DNA of 64,000 bases from contig CP136061.1 of the NCBI GenBank assembly GCA_032622095.1, positions 134,749,587 through 134,813,586 on the forward strand, in the 5' to 3' direction. Positions 21,555 through 64,000 of this stretch are shown here, one piece after another; the stretch's first letter is position 1, and each line of letters opens with the position of its first letter. The DNA comes from Siphonodentalium dalli. Taxonomy: Eukaryota; Mollusca; Scaphopoda; Gadilida; Siphonodentaliidae. Both the position numbers and the translations under genes were made by a program. Under the pieces are notes generated by a model that saw only the letters and a program-made list of their open reading frames with translations, made no database searches and had not been told where the DNA came from.

Positions 21555-21987
21555 TTAACCCTTTACCCAACAGAACGGCCCTGTGCCAATGCATTCTCTT
21601 ATATATGCGAGTCGACCATAGGTCGCCTCGCATATATAAGAGAATGCATTGACTTAACACATATTAAAAATGATTAAATTGTCAAAGAATGTAGAAAAAT
21701 ATTAGAATTTTTTTTTAAAAATGTAAGAAAAAATGGTAAAAAATGTTAAAAAAGAATTTTGTTAGGCCAATGCATTCTCTTATATATGCGAGGCGACCTA
21801 TGGTCGACTCGCATATATAAGAGAATGCATTGGCACAGGGCATAACTGTAAACATCACAATGTGGTCAATGAACCGGTTCCAATGATATCCATATGCGTA
21901 TGGTGTTATTGAGACAAACCGAAGATATTTTAGGCGGTTGAAGCTTTATTTGGGCGTTTTTGGCCGTTTTGTTGGGTAAAGGGTTAA
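21555..21987. mobile_element. TTAA-flanked double-hairpin element, family A, copy 1
   Basis: The ends are TTAA-CCCTTTACCCAACAGAAC and the inverse TTGGGTAAAGGG-TTAA. Inside are two palindromes (21586-21651 and 21766-21834) of about 66 bp that read CCAATGCATTCTCTTATATA, TGCGAGTCGACC and their inverse. An AT-rich spacer of ATGTAAGAAAAA-type units lies between them. The tip sequence GGTCGCC/GGTCGAC and the GTGCCAATGC and GGCACAGGG edges are shared with the other copies, but the outermost 20 bp differ from the CATGACGGGAGC version. Probably piggyBac-mobilised. Confidence 0.8.
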
Positions 21988-25490: not shown

Positions 25491-26133
25491 AAGCATTTCC
25501 ACGGAAAAGTGTCAAACCAACTTTTTTACCATAATTCGAAGGTGCCGAACACGAATAGACTGCCTGTCGCCCGATTGGATGAACATAGGGGTCAATAAAA
25601 GGCTTTTAAAATCTTCGTGTTTTCTTGTTGGGGGTTTGTTGATACGGCGCACCGTACAACGTAATATGAAATCACGTAACTGGCCTTGAACTTACTCAAA
25701 CTTATATACTCCTCGCGGAACGTTCAAAGCCGCGTTATATCATGATACTATCATCACAGTAATAATTCTGAAACATTAACATCATAGTAATCAGGTACAT
25801 ACGGTAAGACATTGCTGTTTTGTACATTTATCGACGATTCTCGTAAGAATTCTCTTATAGTCCGGGAGCCAACAGGGGTACCCTTGCACCCCCGGGACTT
25901 AACATCACCCCACTCATTTTTGTTCTGTATTATGTCCTTCAGCTTTTAAGCAATGTTAACAAGAAAAAAATGTGGCCGTGCAGACTCCAGACAAGATGGC
26001 GTCCATCCTGGCCGCCGTTTTTCAGATCAGACCCTCAGTCAGTTTTATGCAAATTATAGCGGGGAAATCTATTAAAATGTATACAGATGTATATATTTTC
26101 GTGAAGCTAAGACATAATGACACTTTTTTGATG
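25491..26133. other. Unclassified region
   Basis: There is a small GC-rich inverted pair around 25860-25905 (CCGGGAG and CCCCCGG). The words GATGGC and GGCCGCC near 26000-26040 resemble the end module of the satellite complex that follows, so its left boundary may lie a little earlier than I place it. Confidence 0.35.
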
Positions 26134-26297
26134 CAAAATTGAAACTCACCCTCGAAGATGGCCGCCAAAATGTACGCCGGAAGTTGGAAATATGATGTTT
26201 TTTCACAAATATCTTTTAGATCAGTTCATGTTGTTTGGAACTGGTTGAGTAATATGACTTTATTTTGTGTTTTGTATATTAACTGATCATTGGAGCG

Positions 26298-26788
26298 GCG
26301 TGTATGAGTACGGTATACAGTGAGTTGCTGAATTGTCACATGTGAGGTGTATATGCAAGTATGGAAGGTATAAGTGGTCATGTGTGTGGGTATTGGTATA
26401 TCTGGAAGGGCTCACCATTGGTGAGGTGTATATGTATACCTGGATTGACCCTATGGTCATGGGTATGGCGAATAGGTATACATGTAGTGGATGTATGGTC
26501 CATAGTGAGATGAATATGTATACACTGAGTGAATGTATGATCGTGAATGTGGTGAATATGAATACATATAGTGACTATATGGTCATGAGCCAGGTGTAGG
26601 AGTATACCTGGTGTTCATGTATGGTGAATCGTGGCTGTATCGTCATTTGTGGTATGTACGGGTATAACCAAGTATGGCTGTATGGTCAGGCGTACGTGTA
26701 TAAAGTGGGTGACTATATTGCCATTTGTGTGGTATTTGTGTACATATGGAGTGACTGAGGTAATGGGTGGGTTGTACATGTGTACCTT
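26298..26788 (-). repeat. Satellite tract, reverse orientation, copy 1
   Basis: About nine degenerate units of 50-58 bp are recognisable by TGTATAC, GTGACTATATGGTCATG and AGGTG words in the reverse sense. The same tract, almost identical, is at 30070-30560. Open frames of 60-88 codons here are satellite translations. Confidence 0.75.
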
Positions 26789-26919
26789 GGGTGGCTATCG
26801 CTTTCCACAATAACTGAAGGACATGTTAATCAATAGAGAGGTCATGTCAGAGAGTTCTCCATCTTGATGGTGTTTATGTATATGGGGGAAACATTAAACG
26901 TGGAAAGCGATAGCCACCC
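26789..26919. mobile_element. 131-bp inverted-repeat element Y1 at the satellite turn-around
   Basis: The ends GGGTGGCTATCGCTTTCCAC and its exact inverse are 20 bp long. It sits exactly where the satellite changes orientation. A second copy (Y2) is at 30561-30691. The word GGCTATCGCTTT is shared with the last bases of the 898-bp repeats in the composite insertion. Confidence 0.7.
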
Positions 26920-27024
26920 ATTATCACACAGTCATTCCATATATACATAAACACCACAGACGTAACAATATAGTGACCCAATGTATACACGTACACCTGA
27001 CCCATGACAACGGATGACCATACA
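26920..27024 (+). repeat. Satellite tract, forward orientation, interrupted
   Basis: Two units in forward sense end at TACA (27021-27024), where the composite insertion begins. The tract resumes at 29727. Confidence 0.7.
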
Positions 27025-27475
27025 GGTTACACTGGTGTAAATAAGGTTCGGAGAGACCTCTAGCGGATGCGGGGGGAATATATAGGAGAGAATAAAATAG
27101 ACACTGGGCCCTGATTGGTCAATAGCCTTGTGTGCTTTTTGCATAAAAAAATCATCACACCTCTTCCCTATGATTTCCCATAGGTAAGATAGCCATTGGC
27201 ACAGGAATTAACCCTTTGTAGTGAAGTTTGAATTTGTTGGTGTGGTCTAAAATATGACAGTATTTTTTTATGCGGATCTGACACTAGTTACGAAAACACA
27301 AGATTTAAAGGCGAATTCCCTGCTAGACAGATATGATTTTTTTGTGTAAAAAGTTTCCCGAAATGTCAATTTTTCAGATTAAAAAAAAAAATTGGACCCA
27401 TGGTTCATATAGCCAACAGCATACGCTAAAACGTTAGCACTGAGGCCTATGGAAAACATTTACACCAGTGTAACC
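27025..27475 (+). repeat. F1, 451-bp flanking repeat with inverted ends
   Basis: It begins GGTTACACTGGTGTAAAT and ends with the exact inverse. The interior is non-coding and AT-rich with an internal TTAACCCTTTG. It matches F2 (29276-29726) nearly base for base. Confidence 0.85.
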
Positions 27476-27479
27476 TATA

Positions 27480-28377
27480 GGGAAAAATGAGCTTTTTGGC
27501 ATTTTTGATTCCTGGGAGTCACTTTAAAGTATTTGAATGCATTTTTCACAGCCTGGTCTTTCAGTCCAATGAATCTCCCATGCATGGTGTGGCTATTCTT
27601 GCTGCTGATGTCTTCTTTCACTTACATCGGCCAAAAAAATGGTATGATTTTTCATAAAAAATGCCAATTTTTCAAGGTATTTTCAAAAAATTTCAAGGTG
27701 GTAATTGTCACATGATAATGCAAATTACCCATAACATGAGCATGTCAATGACACACAAACCAATTGTTATAAGAAGCTAATCTAACAAGTATTTTGGATT
27801 TTATAGCCAGTGATATACAGATATATATAATAAAAGTGTCTCATTTTCACTGGTGGGTATGGCCATTTGAAGGTTAATAGCACTAAAACTTGGACACATT
27901 TAAGAAAATGCTTCAGCATTTCAAAGAGAGCATATCTTTGTTCAACTAATTCAATATACACCCACATCCAGTTATCTTGGATCACCCTTGCAGACCTGAA
28001 AATGTCATATTTTAGTCTTCCATGTGCTGATAAAGTCATGTGCTTGATGCTCAGCTGATCAGATCTGGACTCAATGACCTCACATCACCAGAAGTTCTCT
28101 CATGGAAAGGATCTTGTACAGTCTTCCATAGCTGATCCAAGTTTGCAACACCAGACCCCAAAAACTGTGTGAAAATGGGGCCTGAATATGACTTTTGGTG
28201 GAAAACTGTGCTTTTTTGATGAATAATGTGTTACCGAGAGTGGGGTTAAATTGTGTGTGATAAATAAAGAACCACAGAAGTGATATTATTTTTGAACACA
28301 TTTTTTTCATTCATGGGCAATTCTGAAAAAATGTAGGGTGTTACAATTATTCCGCGAAAAAGCGGGCTATCGCTTTA
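27480..28377 (+). repeat. E1, first 898-bp tandem unit
   Basis: It starts GGGAAAAATGAGCTTTTTGG and ends with a small hairpin, CCGCGAAAAAGCGG, followed by GCTATCGCTTTA. It differs from E2 at only a handful of positions (for example CCAATGA against CCAATAA near 27571/28469). Short frames on both strands are identical between copies and show no domain. Confidence 0.9.
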
Positions 28378-29275
28378 GGGAAAAATGAGCTTTTTGGCAT
28401 TTTTGATTCCTGGGAGTCACTTTAAAGTATTTGAATGCATTTTTCACAGCCTGGTCTTTCAGTCCAATAAATCTCCCATGCATGGTGTGGCTATTCTTGC
28501 TGCTGATGTCTTCTTTCACTTACATCGGCCAAAAAAATGGTATGATTTTTCATAAAAAATGCCAATTTTTCAAGGTATTTTCAAAAAATTTCAAGGTGGT
28601 AATTGTCACATGATAATGCAAATTACCCATAACATGAGCATGTCAATGACACACAAACCAATTGTTATAAGAAGCTAATCTAACAAGTATTTTGGATTTT
28701 ATAGCCAGTGATATACAGATATATATAATAAAAGTGTCTCATTTTCACTGGTGGGTATGGCCATTTGAAGGTTAATAGCACTAAAACTTGGACACATTTA
28801 AGAAAATGCTTCAGCATTTCAAAGAGAGCATATCTTTGTTCAACTAATTCAATATACACCCACATCCAGTTATCTTGGATCACCCTTGCAGACCTGAAAA
28901 TGTCATATTTTAGTCTTCCATGTGCTGATAAAGTCATGTGCTTGATGCTCAGCTGATCAGATCTGGACTCAATGACCTCACATCACCAGAAGTTCTCTCA
29001 TGGAAAGGATCTTGTACAGTCTTCCATAGCTGATCCAAGTTTGCAACACCAGACCCCAAAAACTGTGTGAAAATGGGGCCTGAATATGACTTTTGGTGGA
29101 AAAATGTGCTTTTTTGACGAATAATGTGTTACCGAGAGTGGGGTTAAATTGTGTGTGATAAATAAAGAACCACAGAAGTGATATTATTTTTGAACACATT
29201 TTTTTCATTCATGGGCAATTCTGAAAAAATGTAGGGTGTTACAATTATTCCGCGAAAAAGCGGGCTATCGCTTTA
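28378..29275 (+). repeat. E2, second 898-bp tandem unit
   Basis: Head-to-tail copy of E1 with no spacer; the junction is CGCTTTA-GGGAAAAATG. Near identity points to a very recent duplication or to gene conversion. Confidence 0.9.
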
Positions 29276-29726
29276 GGTTACACTGGTGTAAATAAGGTTC
29301 GGAGAGACCTCTAGCGGATGCGGGAGGAATATATAGGAGAGAATAAAATAGACACTGGGCCCTGATTGGTCAATAGCCTTGTGTGCTTTTTGCATAAAAA
29401 AATCATCACACCTCTTCCCTATGATTTCCCATAGGTAAGATAGCCATTGGCACAGGAATTAACCCTTTGTAGTGAAGTTTGAATTTGTTGGTGTGGTCTA
29501 AAATATGACAGTATTTTTTTATGCGGATCTGACACTAGTTACGAAAACACAAGATTTAAAGGCGAATTCCCTGCTAGACAGATATGATTTTTTTGTGTAA
29601 AAAGTTTCCCGAAATGTCAATTTTTCAGATTAAAAAAAAAAATTGGACCCATGGTTCATATAGCCAACAGCATACGCTAAAACGTTAGCACTGAGGCCTA
29701 TGGAAAACATTTACACCAGTGTAACC
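29276..29726 (+). repeat. F2, second 451-bp flanking repeat
   Basis: Direct copy of F1 with the same GGTTACACTGGTGTAAAT inverted ends. It is followed by TACA and the resumed satellite. Confidence 0.85.
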
Positions 29727-29903
29727 TACAGCCATGAGTCACAATGGAGGCACACCGGGTATACTCCTAAACATGACCCATAGGGATACAGGGAGTGTAT
29801 GGCCAATGGTGAGGTGAATGTGTATACAAGGATTGACCATGATCATGTATGAATGTATTGAATAGGTACACACGGAGTGACTATATGGCCATAGGTCAGG
29901 TGA
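29727..29903. repeat. Satellite remainder, with an inverted copy of 31087-31203
   Basis: 29727-29779 continues the interrupted forward tract. 29780-29903 is the reverse complement of about 31087-31203 (GGGATACAGGGAGTGTATGG to GGTCAGGTGA). Confidence 0.75.
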
Positions 29904-30848
29904 CACAAAATTGAAACTCACCCTCGAAGATGGCCGCCAAAATGGCCGCCGGAAGTTGGAAATATGACGTTTTTTCACAAATATCTTTTAGATCAGTTCA
30001 TGTTGTTTGGAACTGGTTGAGTAATATGACTTTATTTTGTGTTTTGTATATTAACTGATCATTGGAGCGGCGTGTATGAGTACGGTATACAGTGAGTTGC
30101 TGAATTGTCACGTGTGAGGTGTATATGCAAGTATGGAAGGTATAAGTGGTCATGTGTGTGGGTATTGGTATATCTGGAAGGGCTCACCATTGGTGAGGTG
30201 TATATGTATACCTGGATTGACCCTATGGTCATGGGTATGGCGAATAGGTATACATGTAGTGGATGTATGGTCCATAGTGAGATGAATATGTATACACTGA
30301 GTGAATGTATGATCGTGAATGTGGTGAATATGAATACATATAGTGACTATATGGTCATGAGCCAGGTGTAGGAGTATACCTGGTGTTCATGCATGGTGAA
30401 TCGTGGCTGTATCGTCATTTGTGGTATGTACGGGTATAACCAAGTATGGCTGTATGGTCAGGCGTACGTGTATAAAGTGGGTGACTATATTGTCATTTGT
30501 GTGGTATTTGTGTACATATGGAGTGACTGAGGTAATGGGTGGGTTGTACATGTGTACCTTGGGTGGCTATCGCTTTCCACAATAACTGAAGGATATGTTA
30601 ATCAATAGAGAGGTCATGTCAGAGAGTTCTCCATCTTGATGGTGTTTATGTATATGGGGGAAACATTAAACGTGGAAAGCGATAGCCACCCATTATCACA
30701 CAGTCATTCTATATATACATAAACACCACAGACATAACAATATAGTGACCCAATGTATACACGTACACCTGACCCATGACAACGGATGACCATACAGCCA
30801 TGAGTCACAATGGAGGCACACCGGGTATACTCCTAAACATGACCCATA
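29904..30848. repeat. Second copy of the segmental duplication (empty-site copy)
   Basis: It repeats 26134-27024 plus 29727-29779 at a constant offset of 3772 bp with roughly one difference per hundred bases. It comprises the end module (29904-30069), the reverse satellite (30070-30560), Y2 (30561-30691) and the forward satellite start. At 30793-30796 it carries a single TACA, which is the pre-insertion state of the composite element. Confidence 0.85.
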
Positions 30849-35131: not shown

Positions 35132-35444
35132 TCAAAATCTGGCGTATACCATATAGAGTAGTAGAGAATATAAGATAAAACAAATGATAAAAATTGTTAT
35201 AGATTGTAAGAACAAATTATACAAAATGATAAAAGTTGTTAAATGAATGTAAGAACAAATTATAAAAATGATAAAAATTGTTAAAGAATGTAAAAAAATT
35301 GATAAAAATGATAACGAATTGTTAGGCCAATGAATTCTCTTATATATGCGAGGCGACCTATGGTCAACTCGCATATATAAGAAAATGGATTGGCACAGGG
35401 TTTTTAATGTTGCACCAGCGCTGCTCCCGTCATGAAAGGGTTAA
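35132..35444. mobile_element. Family A element, right half only (copy 2)
   Basis: An AT-rich tandem spacer (units of about 28-30 bp, ATGATAAAAATTGTTAAAGA type) leads to the right hairpin at 35326-35394, then CACAGGG and the terminal TGCACCAGCGCTGCTCCCGT with CATGAAAGGG-TTAA (35441-35444). The left hairpin and terminus are missing. Confidence 0.75.
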
Positions 35445-39028: not shown

Positions 39029-39272
39029 TTAACCCTTTCATGACGGGAGCTGCGCTGGCGCAACATTAAAGACCCCTGTGCCAATGCATTCTCTTATATA
39101 TGCGCGAGTCGACAATAGGTTGCCTCGCATATATAAGAGAATGCATTGGCCTAAGAATTGTTTATCATTTTTGTTTAAATTTTTCTTACATTCTTTAACA
39201 ATTTTTAATATTTTTTTAATAAATTTTCTTGCATTCTATACAAAATTTTATCATTGTTTCTTATATTTTCTC
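39029..39272. mobile_element. Family A element, left half only (copy 3)
   Basis: TTAA-CCCTTTCATGACGGGAGC leads to CGCTGGCGCAACATTAAA, then the left hairpin (39080-39150), then the AT-rich spacer, which stops near 39270. It is complementary in content to copy 2, which has only the right half. Confidence 0.8.
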
Positions 39273-42009: not shown

Positions 42010-42577
42010 CAAAGCAACATTAAAAACCCTGTGCCAATGCATTCTCTTTATATGCGAGTCGACCATATGTCGCCTCGCACATATAAGTCAATGCATTGGC
42101 TTAAACAAAATTTACATTGGCCTAAACAAAATTTATCATTTTTTTTAAAATGTTTCTTACATTCTTCAGCATTCTTTAACAATTTTTATAATTTTTTCTC
42201 ACATTCCTTAGCAATTTTCAACAATTTATATATTTTTTTCTTACATTCTATAACAATTTTTATCATTTTTTGTTATATTCTTTAACAATATTATCACGTT
42301 TCTTACATTCTTTAAACAATTTAAAAAAATATTATATTTTTTCTTACATTATTTACAAATTTTTAGTACTTTTTCTTACATTCTTTAACAATTTTTATAA
42401 ATTTTTTATCATTGTTTCTTACATTCTTATTTTTAAAACTTTTTTATTACATTTCGTTAACAATTATAAAAATGATATAAAATTTGTTACGACCTGTGGT
42501 CTACTCGCATATATAAGAGAATGCATTGGCACAGGGTTTTCGCAAAAAATCAGGAATCCCCGTCATGAAAGGGTTAA
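42010..42577. mobile_element. Family A element with expanded AT spacer (copy 4)
   Basis: The left hairpin (42031-42100), a spacer of about 370 bp made of roughly a dozen 28-32 bp units (TTTTTCTTACATTCTTTAAC type), a partial right hairpin (42490-42530) and the right terminus CCCGTCATGAAAGGG-TTAA (42574-42577) are present. The leftmost terminal repeat is missing, although GCAACATTAAA remains. Confidence 0.75.
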
Positions 42578-46101: not shown

Positions 46102-46355
46102 GCATTCTTAAGAATTTTTATAATTTTTATATCATGATTTCTTACTTTCTTTAACAATTATTTATCCTTTTTTTTTACTTCATTTTTTTCTTTACATTTT
46201 TTAACAATAATAAAAAATAATGTAAAATAATTTGTTAGGCCAATGCATTCTCTTATATATGGGAGGCGACCTATGGTCGACTCGCATGTATAAGATAATG
46301 CATTGGCACAGAGTTTTCGAAAAAATTCAGGAAGCTCCCGTCATGAAAGCGTTAA
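46102..46355. mobile_element. Family A element, right part of the split copy (copy 5)
   Basis: The AT spacer resumes at about 46102. It is followed by the right hairpin (46238-46306) and the terminus GGAAGCTCCCGTCATGAAAG with CG-TTAA (46352-46355). Confidence 0.7.
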
Positions 46356-55354: not shown

Positions 55355-55607
55355 TTAACCCTTGCATGCCGGGAGCTGCGCTGGTGCAGCATTAATAACC
55401 ATGTGCCAGTGCATTCACTTAAATTGTGAGTCTCCAATAGGGAACCTCGCATATATAAGAGAATGTACTGGCTTACAAGGTCAAGTTAATATTGTTAGGC
55501 AAGTTCATTCTCTTATATATGCGAGGCGACATATGGTCGACTCGCATATATGAGAGAATGCAGTGTTTTCGCAAAATTTCAGGAAGCTCTAGTCATGAAA
55601 GGGTTAA
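55355..55607. mobile_element. Family A double-hairpin element, compact complete copy (copy 6)
   Basis: TTAA-CCCTTGCATGCCGGGAGC on the left and CTAGTCATGAAAGGG-TTAA on the right enclose two hairpins (about 55402-55471 and 55498-55562). There is only a short spacer instead of the AT tandem array, which shows that the spacer is dispensable and variable. Confidence 0.8.
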
Positions 55608-59499: not shown

Positions 59500-59534
59500 A
59501 CATAGTATGGAATCCTATTACGGCCACTTGCTAA

Positions 59535-59840
59535 TGGCGCTTTCGGCGCACTTTTTGTCGCTTTCGGCGCGCGCGCCGAAAGCGACAAAAAGTGCGCCAT
59601 TAGCGTTGTTTCGGCGCGCGCCGAAAGCGCCGAAAGTGCCGAAAGCGACAAAATGTGCGCCGATCGGCGCACTTTTTGTCGCTTTCGGCGCTTTCGGCGC
59701 GCGCGCCGAAAGCGACAAAAAGTGCGCCATTAGCGTTGTTTCGGCGCGCGCCGAAAGCGCCGAAAGCGCCGAAAGCGACAGAAAGTGCGCCATTAGCGCG
59801 GTGCGCCATTAGGGCATTCGGCGCGGTGCGCCATTAGCGC
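59535..59840. repeat. Left GC-rich palindrome array
   Basis: Modules GCGCACTTTTTGTCGC, TTTCGGCGC (one to three times), GCGCCGAAAGCG and ACAAAAAGTGCGCC follow each other as inverse pairs, with ATTAGCG words between. CpG density is far above the surroundings. Open frames of SAL, ARA and APKA type on both strands are repeat translation. Confidence 0.9.
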
Positions 59841-59871
59841 ATGTATACAATTAAGTATGTGATCAGCCCAG

Positions 59872-60209
59872 CAGGGGTGCCGGAAGAGGGGGCAGCTGAT
59901 CCCCTGCCCTTGACCAAGGGGGCAGGACTTGCCCTTTTTCTGGAGACAGAAAATGCTGTGTTTAATCTCGTGTTTTTATAGCAAAATGTAACTTTTTGGG
60001 TCCAAATACCACCAATTTCACAAGGAATATTAATTTTTTGTCAAAAACGGCCATAAAAACCGACAAATACCTTTAAAATAGGGATTTTTGCCACAATGAA
60101 TTTATGGTTGTTTTTTCCGAGTTTGCGGAGAAAATTCCCTTTTTTGGGCAGAAAAGTGCCATTTTGTAGGCTCTCCCCCCCCGATGCCCTTGGATGCTCC
60201 CGGCACCTC
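59872..60209. mobile_element. Family U foldback element, copy 2
   Basis: The ends AGGGGTGCCGGA and CCGGCACCT enclose CTTGCCC-rich sequence resembling 10990-11122. It lies inside the 3.05-kb element. Confidence 0.5.
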
Positions 60210-60610
60210 AGTGCAGATCGGACATGGCCATATGTGTACAATGTATAGGCCTATGTATCAATTTTAAAAGGGAGGGGCTGAATTTTGCTGTAGATACACC
60301 TCTAAATGCTATAATTTGTCATTATTCAGATTTAAAATTATTTATTAATATGGTACTTAACACATGTATGAATTTTCACTATAAATGAGTCTAAATATAG
60401 TCAAGTGATTAGTATGCATACATTTGAGCAACTTTTTAAGTGAGTGTTGCCGCATGTAATTAAATGTAATATAATGAAAAAGTCTGTTAATAATTGAACA
60501 CCACAACTGACTGTCACTAGCTGTGATAGACTTGCAGTGAATATATTGATTGAGTAATTGGCAATCATGAATATTTTTGTGGGACAAACCCCAGCTTCTG
60601 GCATGATTCA

Positions 60611-60905
60611 GGGTACGTTCATACGCTGGCAAGTTTGCAAGGTACATTTTTGTGGGCATTTCGTCATAGAAAACCACATGGTGCCAGAATATGAACGGAA
60701 ATATGCACCTAACATGCATCTTTACCAGAGCGAAAGACATCGGAAGTAACATTTATATAGTTCCACTTGTACTACCAGTGCTACCTCCAAATACCTGTAT
60801 GATTTATTCTTGTGAGATAATTTGCATGATATTTACAGGCAAATTCCGGTAGCATCGTTACCAGTGGAACTACAGAGATTTATTTCGCACGTATACTAGT
60901 AGTTA
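60611..60905. mobile_element. Family D element, left part, nested in the 3.05-kb element
   Basis: GGGTACGTTCATACGCTGGC starts the copy. The inner palindrome pair AGTTCCACTTGTACTACCAG / TACCAGTGGAACT is intact and the right end is missing. Confidence 0.65.
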
Positions 60906-62060
60906 GCCCCCCAACTTTGGTCAAAAGTATAACAGTTGGAAATTTCATACTTGCCAAAACATTAGTTGGAAATTTCACACCAACAATAGGTGAAATATGT
61001 TCTTGTAGTTTGATTATAAAACAATTTATTGGGGGGGGGGAAATGTTCCTATGTTTGGTAAAAACTTTGGACAGAAATGGTCATCAGTTGGAAATTTTCC
61101 AACCTTAGGGGGGGGTAACAGATTGGAAATTTCCAACACTTGGAAAGCTTGTGTCCTGGTCCCTCCCCCGTGGCCAGTCAAAAACTTCTAGTTAATTTAA
61201 GAAAACAATATTGTCACACATTTGGTCAACATTGTCATTGGAATTGTCATCAGTTGAAAATTTTCCAACCTAAGTGGGGGGTGTAGGGTTTAAATTTACA
61301 ACGGTAGGAAGGCTTGAGGCTAGTGTAGATGTTACGATTTCAAAATTTTCTTGTTAAGATTTCTAAATTTTCGCACACCGGATCGAACCATGGTCGGCCC
61401 GGTGTGTCATTGCCCCACATCCACATGGCCAATAACAAAACTGCTAATTAGTTTAGCAAAACAATATTTTACTACATTTGGTCAAATTTGTGGACAGAAA
61501 TGGTCATCACTTGAAGAATTTTCCAACCTGAGGGGAGTATGAGGTTTGAAATTTTCAAATAACTAATAAATGTTCAGGTTAAAATATCTGTCAATGTTCT
61601 CATACCAGGAATATAGAAATATAAAACCATGGCTTATGAATATATTAGAAATTAGGCCTGACTGAGGTTCAAGGGGGGGGGGGGGGGGGTGCAAATGGAA
61701 TTATTCAAAAACTTGTGTTGGTCTGATTCTGACTAAAGGGGGGATGCAGTTGGAATTTCCCAAGGTGGACACCCCCCCCCCAAACATGTAGTTGAAATTG
61801 AAGTCAGAAGAACCCCTCCCCCCAGATTGTGCCATGAAACTTTACTCTGCATAGTGCTTGTAGAGATATTATTCCATCAGTGCAAAACATGGGAACTTTT
61901 TTTATGTTCTAACATGGAACTTTATAACATTGAACAAACAAGGCAGAGAACATGTTGGACTCTCCGTTACCACATCCCTGCATCCATGCGAATGGGGGGG
62001 GGGGGGGGGGTTCAGGAGCTGTGGCTTTTGAAGTTCACTCACCTAATTGTAATTCCATAT
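60906..62060. repeat. Degenerate repeats with G tracts and GGAAATTTTCCAACC palindromes
   Basis: ACAGAAATGGTCATCAGTTG followed by GAAATTTTCCAACC and a G-rich run recurs near 61066, 61241 and 61491. G tracts of 10 (61031), 17 (61673-61689) and 17 (61994-62010) bases and C tracts near 61770 stand out. No coding signal. Confidence 0.55.
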
Positions 62061-62183
62061 TTCTGATAAAACTTATAGATAATTTCACGGTGTGTAAAAT
62101 TTAGAAAAAAATTGTCAACAATAAACGCCTCCATTTTAATGGCATACAGAAGTTACACCTCGTTACGCATGCCGGAAACGCTG

Positions 62184-62534
62184 CACTTTTTGTCGCTTTC
62201 GGCGCTTTCGGCGCGTTACTAACGGCGCATATTTTGTCGCTTTCGGCGCGGTGCGCCGAAAGCGCCGAAAGCGCCGAAAGCGACAAAAAGTGCGCCGTAA
62301 CGGCGCATATTTTGTCGCTTTCGGCGCTTTCGGCGCGCGCCGAAATAACGCTAATGGCGCACATTTTGTCGCTTTCGGCGCACCGCGCCGAAAGCGCCGA
62401 AAGCGACAAATAGTGCGCCGTTACGGCGCACTTTTTGTCGCTTTCGGCGCTTTCGGCGCGTTACTAATGGCGCACTTTTTGTCGCTTTCGGCGCTTTCGG
62501 CGCATCGCGCCGAAAGCGCCGAAAGCGCCATTAG
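62184..62534. repeat. Right GC-rich palindrome array
   Basis: Same modules as the left array, in inverse overall order, with more TTTCGGCGC/GCGCCGAAA reiterations and TAACGGCGCA joints. Confidence 0.9.
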
Positions 62535-62565
62535 CAAGTGGCCGTAATAGGATTCCATAACATAG

Positions 62566-63231: not shown

Positions 63232-64000
63232 CCGCCCGGACCAGCCCGGACCAGCCCGGACCAGCCCGGACCAACCCGGACCAGCCCCGGACCAGACCGG
63301 AACAGCCCGGATCAGCCCGGGCCATCCCGGACCAGCCCGGACCCCCCATATGGACTATATGAGTGATTTTAAGGGCAATATAAGTGCAGGGGTGTCATGG
63401 AAACCCACTCAGGGTCGCTATTAACCCTCAAAATGCCGGCATCGGCGAAAATGTTCGCCGCGAAATGAAGCTAACAGCCCGGACCGACCCTGCTGCGTCC
63501 AGGTGTGAGTTTAGTATTCATATCTGTGCGAGGGTGTTAATGAAACCCAAATACGCACGAAGAGTGGTCAAGGTCAAAAGGAAGTGCCGCTTATTAACCC
63601 CTAAACTTCCCAGATTCAGCCAGAATTACAAAATTGCGCCCCCAATAAACAAACTCACAGCCCGGACCCCCTTAATGTCCTCGTACTTCTAATAACCCCT
63701 CACATATGTGTTGTGGAACTACCCTCGACTACACTCACGAAGATACAAGGGCGAGTCGCCCACGAATGCCTGGCAATTAACCCCCAAAATGCCGCCATCG
63801 CCGACTATGTTTACCCATAACGACGCTGACAGCCCGGACCAGCCCGGACCATCCCGGTCCAGCCCGGACCCCCCATATGGACTATTTGAGTGATTTTAAG
63901 GTCAATATAAGTACAGGGGTGTCATGGAAACCCACTCAGGGTGGCTATTAACCCTCAAAATGCCGGCATCGGCGAAAATGTTCGCCGCGAAATGAAGCTA
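63232..64000 (+). repeat. Satellite with 526-bp trimeric period and CCCGGACCAG runs
   Basis: It opens with about eleven copies of a 10-mer CCCGGACCAG (63235-63345). The block CCCCCATATGGACTAT to CGCCGCGAAATGAAGCTA recurs 526-527 bp later (63341 and 63868). Within one period, monomers of about 173, 183 and 170 bp start at TTAACCC (63422, 63595, 63778, 63948). Each carries AACCCC-AAAATGCCG-like words and then ACAGCCCGGACC. The array continues past the window edge. Short frames rich in P and G are repeat translation. Confidence 0.8.

Follow-up and report, generated by a model that had tools for sequence, protein, structure and literature searches.

The 3054-bp element at positions 59506-62559 of the 64,000-nt window (the whole stretch of DNA analysed here) is a copy of a real, well-delimited, young, and dispersed transposon family that has been recently active and is apparently non-autonomous. 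The explanation that we favor, as moderately probable, is that the family is of IS3EU type and that the CpG-rich palindromic arrays inside its ends are clustered sites at which the transposase or a helper protein binds.

Structure of the window element

The 6-bp sequence ACATAG directly abuts the element at both sides as a target site duplication (TSD), in agreement with the 6-bp duplication and the 3.05-kb unit proposed by an earlier sequence-only reading of this DNA (Table 1). That reading described exact terminal inverted repeats (TIRs) of 35 bp, which are indeed exact but are longer than it supposed; its alternative of a 9-bp duplication is rejected because the 9-bp repeat does not directly adjoin both ends. 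Just inside the two ends lie arrays of about 300-360 bp, close to the 300-350 bp of palindromes first described, in which 9-bp modules (TTTCGGCGC / GCGCCGAAA) and a 17-bp module (GGCGCACTTTTTGTCGC) each occur in both orientations. In the interior, a Pfam scan of six stop-to-stop frames gave no match over the curated cut-off.

Table 1. Features of the window element and of three miniature relatives
Feature	Positions	Strand	Remarks
Left TSD	59500..59505	.	ACATAG, 6 bp
Left TIR	59506..59549	+	44 bp, start TATGGAATCC; 100% complementary to 62516-62559
Left subterminal array	59541..59845	.	9-bp TTTCGGCGC/GCGCCGAAA and 17-bp GCGACAnnnnnTGCGCC modules, both orientations; inner boundary near GCGCATGTATACAATTAAG
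Interior	59846..62174	.	CpG-poor, apparently non-coding (Pfam scan of six frames)
Right subterminal array	62175..62530	.	Includes the 79-nt inverted repeat below
79-nt inverted repeat in right array	62259-62337 / 62384-62462		95%
Right TIR	62516..62559	-	44 bp, end GGATTCCATA; inverted repeat
Right TSD	62560..62565	.	ACATAG, 6 bp
Miniature element, 114 bp	L036 1501-1614		TSD CATATG
Miniature element, 263 bp	L045 1501-1763		Exact 6-bp TSD
Miniature element, 504 bp	L014 2004-2507		Exact 6-bp TSD

Other repeats are present elsewhere in the window. A GC-rich 10-bp minisatellite (GCCCGGACCA) occupies 63234-63343 and 63830-63870, just right of the element, where GC content per kilobase is the highest in the window. 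A second palindromic repeat family (GCCAATGCATTCTCTTATATATGCGAGGCGACC...) has seven copies listed in the window (21570-21838, 35311-35398, 39067-39154, 42447-42534, 46224-46311, and 55484-55571), and similar sequence also adjoins another copy of the transposon (L002). Within 26129-30745, long and nearly identical direct repeats recur at a distance of about 3772 bp, and further 300-nt repeats, at distances of 2251 and 898 bp, lie between them.

A young, dispersed family

Across the genome (2.2 Gb, 9 contigs), the exact first 34 bp of the TIR occurs at 537 ends (262 and 275 by strand), and the reversed sequence, used as a control, at none. Among the first 100 listed ends (contig C1, and C2 to 178.8 Mb) there are 37 inward-facing neighbour pairs, spanning 114-3345 bp, and 26 unpaired ends. 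Exact 6-bp TSDs adjoin the TIRs directly at 15 of 54 left/right end combinations, a set that includes ends that are not partners, where simple arithmetic gives an expectation of about 0.01; a further six of the 54 have an exact 6-bp TSD beyond a one-sided extension of 4-5 nt, with about 0.2 expected by similarly simple arithmetic over the offsets tried. By eye, TSDs were also recognized for four further pairs whose ends lie on separate loci (ATTTTC, CATGTT, GTTTAG, and GGCTTT), and none was seen for the pair L051/L052.

The main aligned block is 95.8-98.6% identical among four 3-kb copies (the window, L018, L024, and one unit of L012), and the family is therefore young. The fifth copy compared, the 4-kb L027, has only array matches (82-94%) to the other copies among the matches listed, so the interior is not common to every copy. 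Free-standing miniatures also occur, in which two TIRs have little or only array between them, each with an exact 6-bp TSD (Table 1). The sequence TATTAGGG is a variant of the TIR.

Arrays across copies

Arrays are found at most of the ends examined, in support of the earlier description of a transposon with array-bearing ends. Long arrays are present in 91 of 97 end rows (88 of 94 after removal of repeats), a sample biased towards arrays in that many rows came from a query containing the array start; in the flank-unbiased set, loci L029-L058, for which the search pattern lay within the TIR, they are present in 33 of 36 end rows and at 31 of 34 distinct ends. The sequence-only reading had named TIRs lacking arrays in most copies as evidence that would count against it, and the 91 of 97 rows with at least 166 bp of array run the other way. 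The six rows with short or absent arrays include both ends of the 114-bp L036 element, which has its own TSD, and long arrays are therefore not strictly needed for insertion.

Comparison of the arrays between copies, which that reading had called for, shows that their length varies widely (166-912 bp in the 91 rows) and that two sequences account for most inner boundaries: 68 of the 97 rows belong to a TTAAGTATG class and six, including the right end in the window, to a CAGCGTTTCC class, while 13 run into another TIR (the miniature elements) and 10 end otherwise. Nine pairwise array comparisons have 56-166 gap columns but only 2-18 mismatches. The 17-bp motif GCGACAnnnnnTGCGCC, counted in arrays read to at most 450 bp and with ends lacking the motif skipped, has 478 copies in 91 ends (mean 5.25 per end), in orientations of 306:172, and five core variants make up 458 of these copies. 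Spacing recurs as well. For one opposed arrangement of neighbouring motifs, the starts are 21-22 bp apart in 74 of 92 pairs; for the other, 99 of 131 pairs have start-to-start distances of 37-38, 46-47, or 55-56 bp, the steps corresponding to the 9-bp module.

The association between arrays and TIRs was followed with a 24-mer from the array, which has 388 copies genome-wide (control, 0). The part of the genome with complete lists of both contains 69 copies; an exact TIR end is no more than 700 bp away for 58 of them, where chance would give about 0.03%, and no more than 10 kb away for 62. The remaining seven have no exact TIR end within 10 kb, perhaps because the TIRs near them are mutated, and the largest cluster is of four. 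The arrays are therefore part of the transposon rather than a free satellite, and for the part of the genome listed we reject the independent satellite origin that the earlier reading had held up against itself.

CpG content and folding

Both arrays are CpG-rich, as first noted, with observed/expected ratios of 1.98 and 2.13, compared to 0.39 in the interior, 0.88 in the left flank, and 0.98 in the whole window. High CpG in the arrays next to a CpG-poor interior does not suggest that the arrays have long been methylated in the germ line. We regard it as very improbable that the arrays mainly serve or suffer silencing, as CpG-dense hairpins subject to methylation or acting as a source of small RNAs. 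A CpG ratio of about 2 would suit such a role, and hairpin-forming transcripts are plausible sources of small RNAs, but long germ-line methylation should have decayed the CpGs, as the interior ratio may reflect, and those of the arrays are undecayed; the youth of the copies could explain this last point either way.

Structure prediction bears out the proposed capacity of the arrays to fold; the sequence-only reading further predicted that such arrays would extrude cruciforms, attract CpG methylation, and stall replication. Folded as DNA, the left end reaches -147.6 kcal/mol (z -14.64) and the right end -184.2 kcal/mol (z -19.92), compared to means of -91.2 and -100.6 for their shuffled versions, with none of 100 shuffles as good in either case, whereas an interior stretch of similar length has a z of -1.13 and is equaled by 14 of 100 shuffles. 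Foldback elements have long inverted repeats made of tandem modules; in the element described here, each end has modules of both orientations, and certain arms of one end are paired with arms of the other. The arrays might act as DNA structures, with hairpins or cruciforms that are recognised themselves or, as in foldback elements, promote fold-back copying. Although the very strong folding at both ends, inverted repeats of up to 79 nt at 95%, and rapid change in array length are all in keeping with this explanation, we judge it distinctly unlikely: what recurs is motif sequence and spacing, as in the predominance of five core variants, rather than complementarity alone, and exact TIRs with a 6-bp TSD are the mark of ordinary transposase insertion.

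Self-insertion

Some copies are nested in the arrays or TIRs of other copies, with exact TSDs in L010 (AAAAGT), L015 (GATTAG), and L053 (ATATTT) and, by eye, CATTAG in L032. Genome-wide, 17 TIR ends lie no more than 12 bp downstream of TTTCGGCGC (reversed control, 0), and at eight of these the TIR follows TTTCGGCGCGTTAC at one identical site. We rejected this cassette as a hotspot of targeting, since it is indistinguishable from one event that has been amplified.

Self-insertion of this kind, along with the ends close to TTTCGGCGC, higher-order repetition of one array 24-mer at 121 and 130 bp, and variation of motif spacing in 9-bp steps, is what would be expected if the arrays were functionless, passive debris, formed where an end that was already rich in GC underwent slippage, hairpin-mediated deletion and duplication, and repeated self-insertion. 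We consider this origin unlikely, since 91 of 97 end rows keep long arrays, each of which has several cores and most of which stop inward at either of two boundaries, whereas frequent loss would be expected of pure debris. The force of this argument is weakened because the copies are young.

Superfamily assignment

Fungal IS3EU families are characterized, in the sections of PMC12730594 used here, by TIRs longer than 30 bp, ends of the form TAYGG..CCRTA, and a 6-bp TSD, and IS3EU elements in general, in the corresponding sections of PMC10045372, by TA..TA termini and usually a 6-bp TSD. The family described here shares all of these features: its ends are TATGG..CCATA, its TIRs are 44 bp long, and its 6-bp TSDs are exact and adjacent in the 15 end combinations given above. 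From these ends, TIR length, and TSD, we therefore read it as most likely a non-autonomous IS3EU-type transposon, one whose subterminal arrays are unusually well developed.

The genome contains many integrase-core frames of the rva_4 domain (PF24764), which we take to be the IS3EU transposase: 126 matches were found among 150 scored candidates, many without an internal stop, and none in 14 control genomes, and one candidate was confirmed as rva_4 at 2e-71. The frames lie at many places in the genome and include a group of similarly scoring 294-aa copies, one of them at L062 1566-2447. Two pieces were taken at places expected beside further copies; L063 matches L062 (98.7% over 625 bp) and L064 does not. 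In the 4 kb read around the 294-aa copy in L062, no matching TIR is recognisable. The family differs from described IS3EU elements in that a transposase with its TIRs was not recovered among loci L001-L061 and the window, where a tblastn search with one rva_4 protein gave no match; on C1 and C2, inspection by eye puts the rva_4 places about 280 kb or more away from the exact TIR ends listed (100 of the 537).

The lack of a cognate transposase in this one-protein search would also be expected if the element belonged to a different superfamily with 6-bp TSDs (hAT6, Dada, Polinton-derived, or GingerRoot), a placement that we think improbable. Dada elements can give a 6-bp TSD. Families of hAT with 6-bp TSDs are mentioned in the part of PMC12730594 used here, and Polinton and GingerRoot are given 6-bp TSDs in that of PMC10045372. 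Ends of TAYGG..CCRTA combined with a TIR longer than 30 bp, in contrast, match the fungal IS3EU families (PMC12730594, as excerpted), and GingerRoot would differ little as an assignment because the published tree treats IS3EU and GingerRoot together (PMC10045372, as excerpted). A literature search, covering sections of both papers, found no report of palindromic subterminal arrays for IS3EU.

Ends joined by a single base

Back-to-back exact ends with a spacer of 0-12 bp occur at seven sites genome-wide, with spacers of 1, 1, 1, 1, 6, 12, and 12 bp. With up to three mismatches allowed, there are eight sites at 1 bp, two at 6 bp, and none at 2 bp or 3 bp; spacers other than 1, 2, 3, and 6 bp were searched to 12 bp with exact ends only, and on that basis none is of 4 or 5 bp. 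A 6-bp spacer is what a shared target duplication would leave. Independent clean 1-bp sites are few, because two of the eight share one trimer and three carry three mismatches in the ends. Copies joined by one base are located at C1:252526393-252535245 (L012, L059), C2:54993533 (L060), C6:25781796 (L061), and C5:14937784 (L066). The C1 trimer is head-to-tail, as is the C6 pair, the left unit of which is truncated; the C2 pair is probably head-to-tail, judging from similar starting arrays, and the fourth locus is, as read, a copy carrying a nested element joined to a neighbour.

Junctions of this form resemble the bacterial minicircles of IS2 and the IS3 family, in which the two ends are abutted with a 1-bp spacer; for IS2, 1- or 2-bp spacers are given in proportions of 90% to 10% (PMC3299598, in the sections used here). 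Unlike those of IS2, the junctions are known here from the genome alone rather than as free molecules, and the two readable pairs of outer flanks, CTGATA/CCTACC at the C1 trimer and AGGATA/GCATCC at the C2 pair, have no 6-bp TSD. It is equally possible that a transposase joined two elements that had been separate and that the intervening DNA was lost, since this fits the TSD-less flanks no worse than a dimer insertion does, and perhaps better.

We entertain, as a tentative idea with a modest chance of being right, that the family moves by IS3-like copy-out/paste-in, in which the ends would be joined by a single spacer base before insertion, as in IS2 minicircles, the 1-bp junctions and extended insertions would be relics of this process, and the arrays would hold the transposase on the joined ends. 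In extended insertions, an intact TIR would then be separated from the 6-bp TSD by the spacer base together with 3-4 bases from the abutted end. Four of the six one-sided extensions match spacer plus end (L026, L028, L011, and L010), and the other two, in L027 and in L041 of the flank-unbiased set (which reads CATAC), do not; those in L002 and L004 match it as well but have one mismatch in the TSD. One-sided extensions with an outer TSD would fit such a route, with the qualification that both their frequency and their sequence are biased because most were found with a query containing CATAG. The control pattern, CATA followed by two bases and the TIR (TATGGAATCCTATTA), has 61 occurrences genome-wide.

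Function of the arrays

That no standard transposon family has this subterminal design, as the sequence-only reading supposed, does not hold, because palindromic subterminal repeats have already been described in CACTA elements: in the sections of PMC2613891 used here, the subterminal repeats of the soybean CACTA element Tgmt* form two palindromes in the 159 bp next to one end and 12 in the 732 bp next to the other. The CACTA elements covered there (En/Spm, soybean Tgm) likewise have hundreds of bp of short repeats with multiple palindromes inside their ends, and TNPA-like proteins bind the CACTA subterminal repeats (PMC2613891). They differ from the present family, which has palindrome-capable subterminal arrays but TATGG termini and a 6-bp TSD in place of the CACTA termini and 3-bp TSD (PMC2613891). 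The parallel is thus one of functional analogy and not of membership. Oyster non-autonomous Helentrons offer a further likeness as dispersed elements with short, satellite-like repeat arrays (PMC7492417, in the sections used here). Exact TIRs and 6-bp TSDs set the present family apart from them. Helentrons are rolling-circle elements.

By analogy with CACTA, we infer that the arrays of this apparently IS3EU-type family are bound by protein. The TIRs would be acted on in trans by a transposase encoded elsewhere, and this enzyme or a helper protein would bind the repeated 17-bp motif, a putative site. Several such sites in both orientations would raise the local concentration of the protein and ease pairing of the ends, as TNPA does on CACTA repeats, and opposed motifs starting 21-22 bp apart would be separated by about two helical turns. 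Array length would change by slippage, hairpin-mediated deletion, and self-insertion, and we propose that these changes are tolerated because enough sites remain. The capacity to fold would then be a by-product of packing sites in both orientations, and the palindromes need not act as structures.

If the family is of IS3EU type, the CACTA-like logic of dense subterminal binding arrays would extend to a little-studied superfamily, and its young copies, which differ in number of sites, would form a natural series in which to ask what number of sites an end requires. The 1-bp junctions are a more surprising feature than the arrays, and this side result may matter more. Given an IS3EU-type family, they would open to direct test the question of whether a eukaryotic relative of bacterial IS3 has retained the circular copy-out route.
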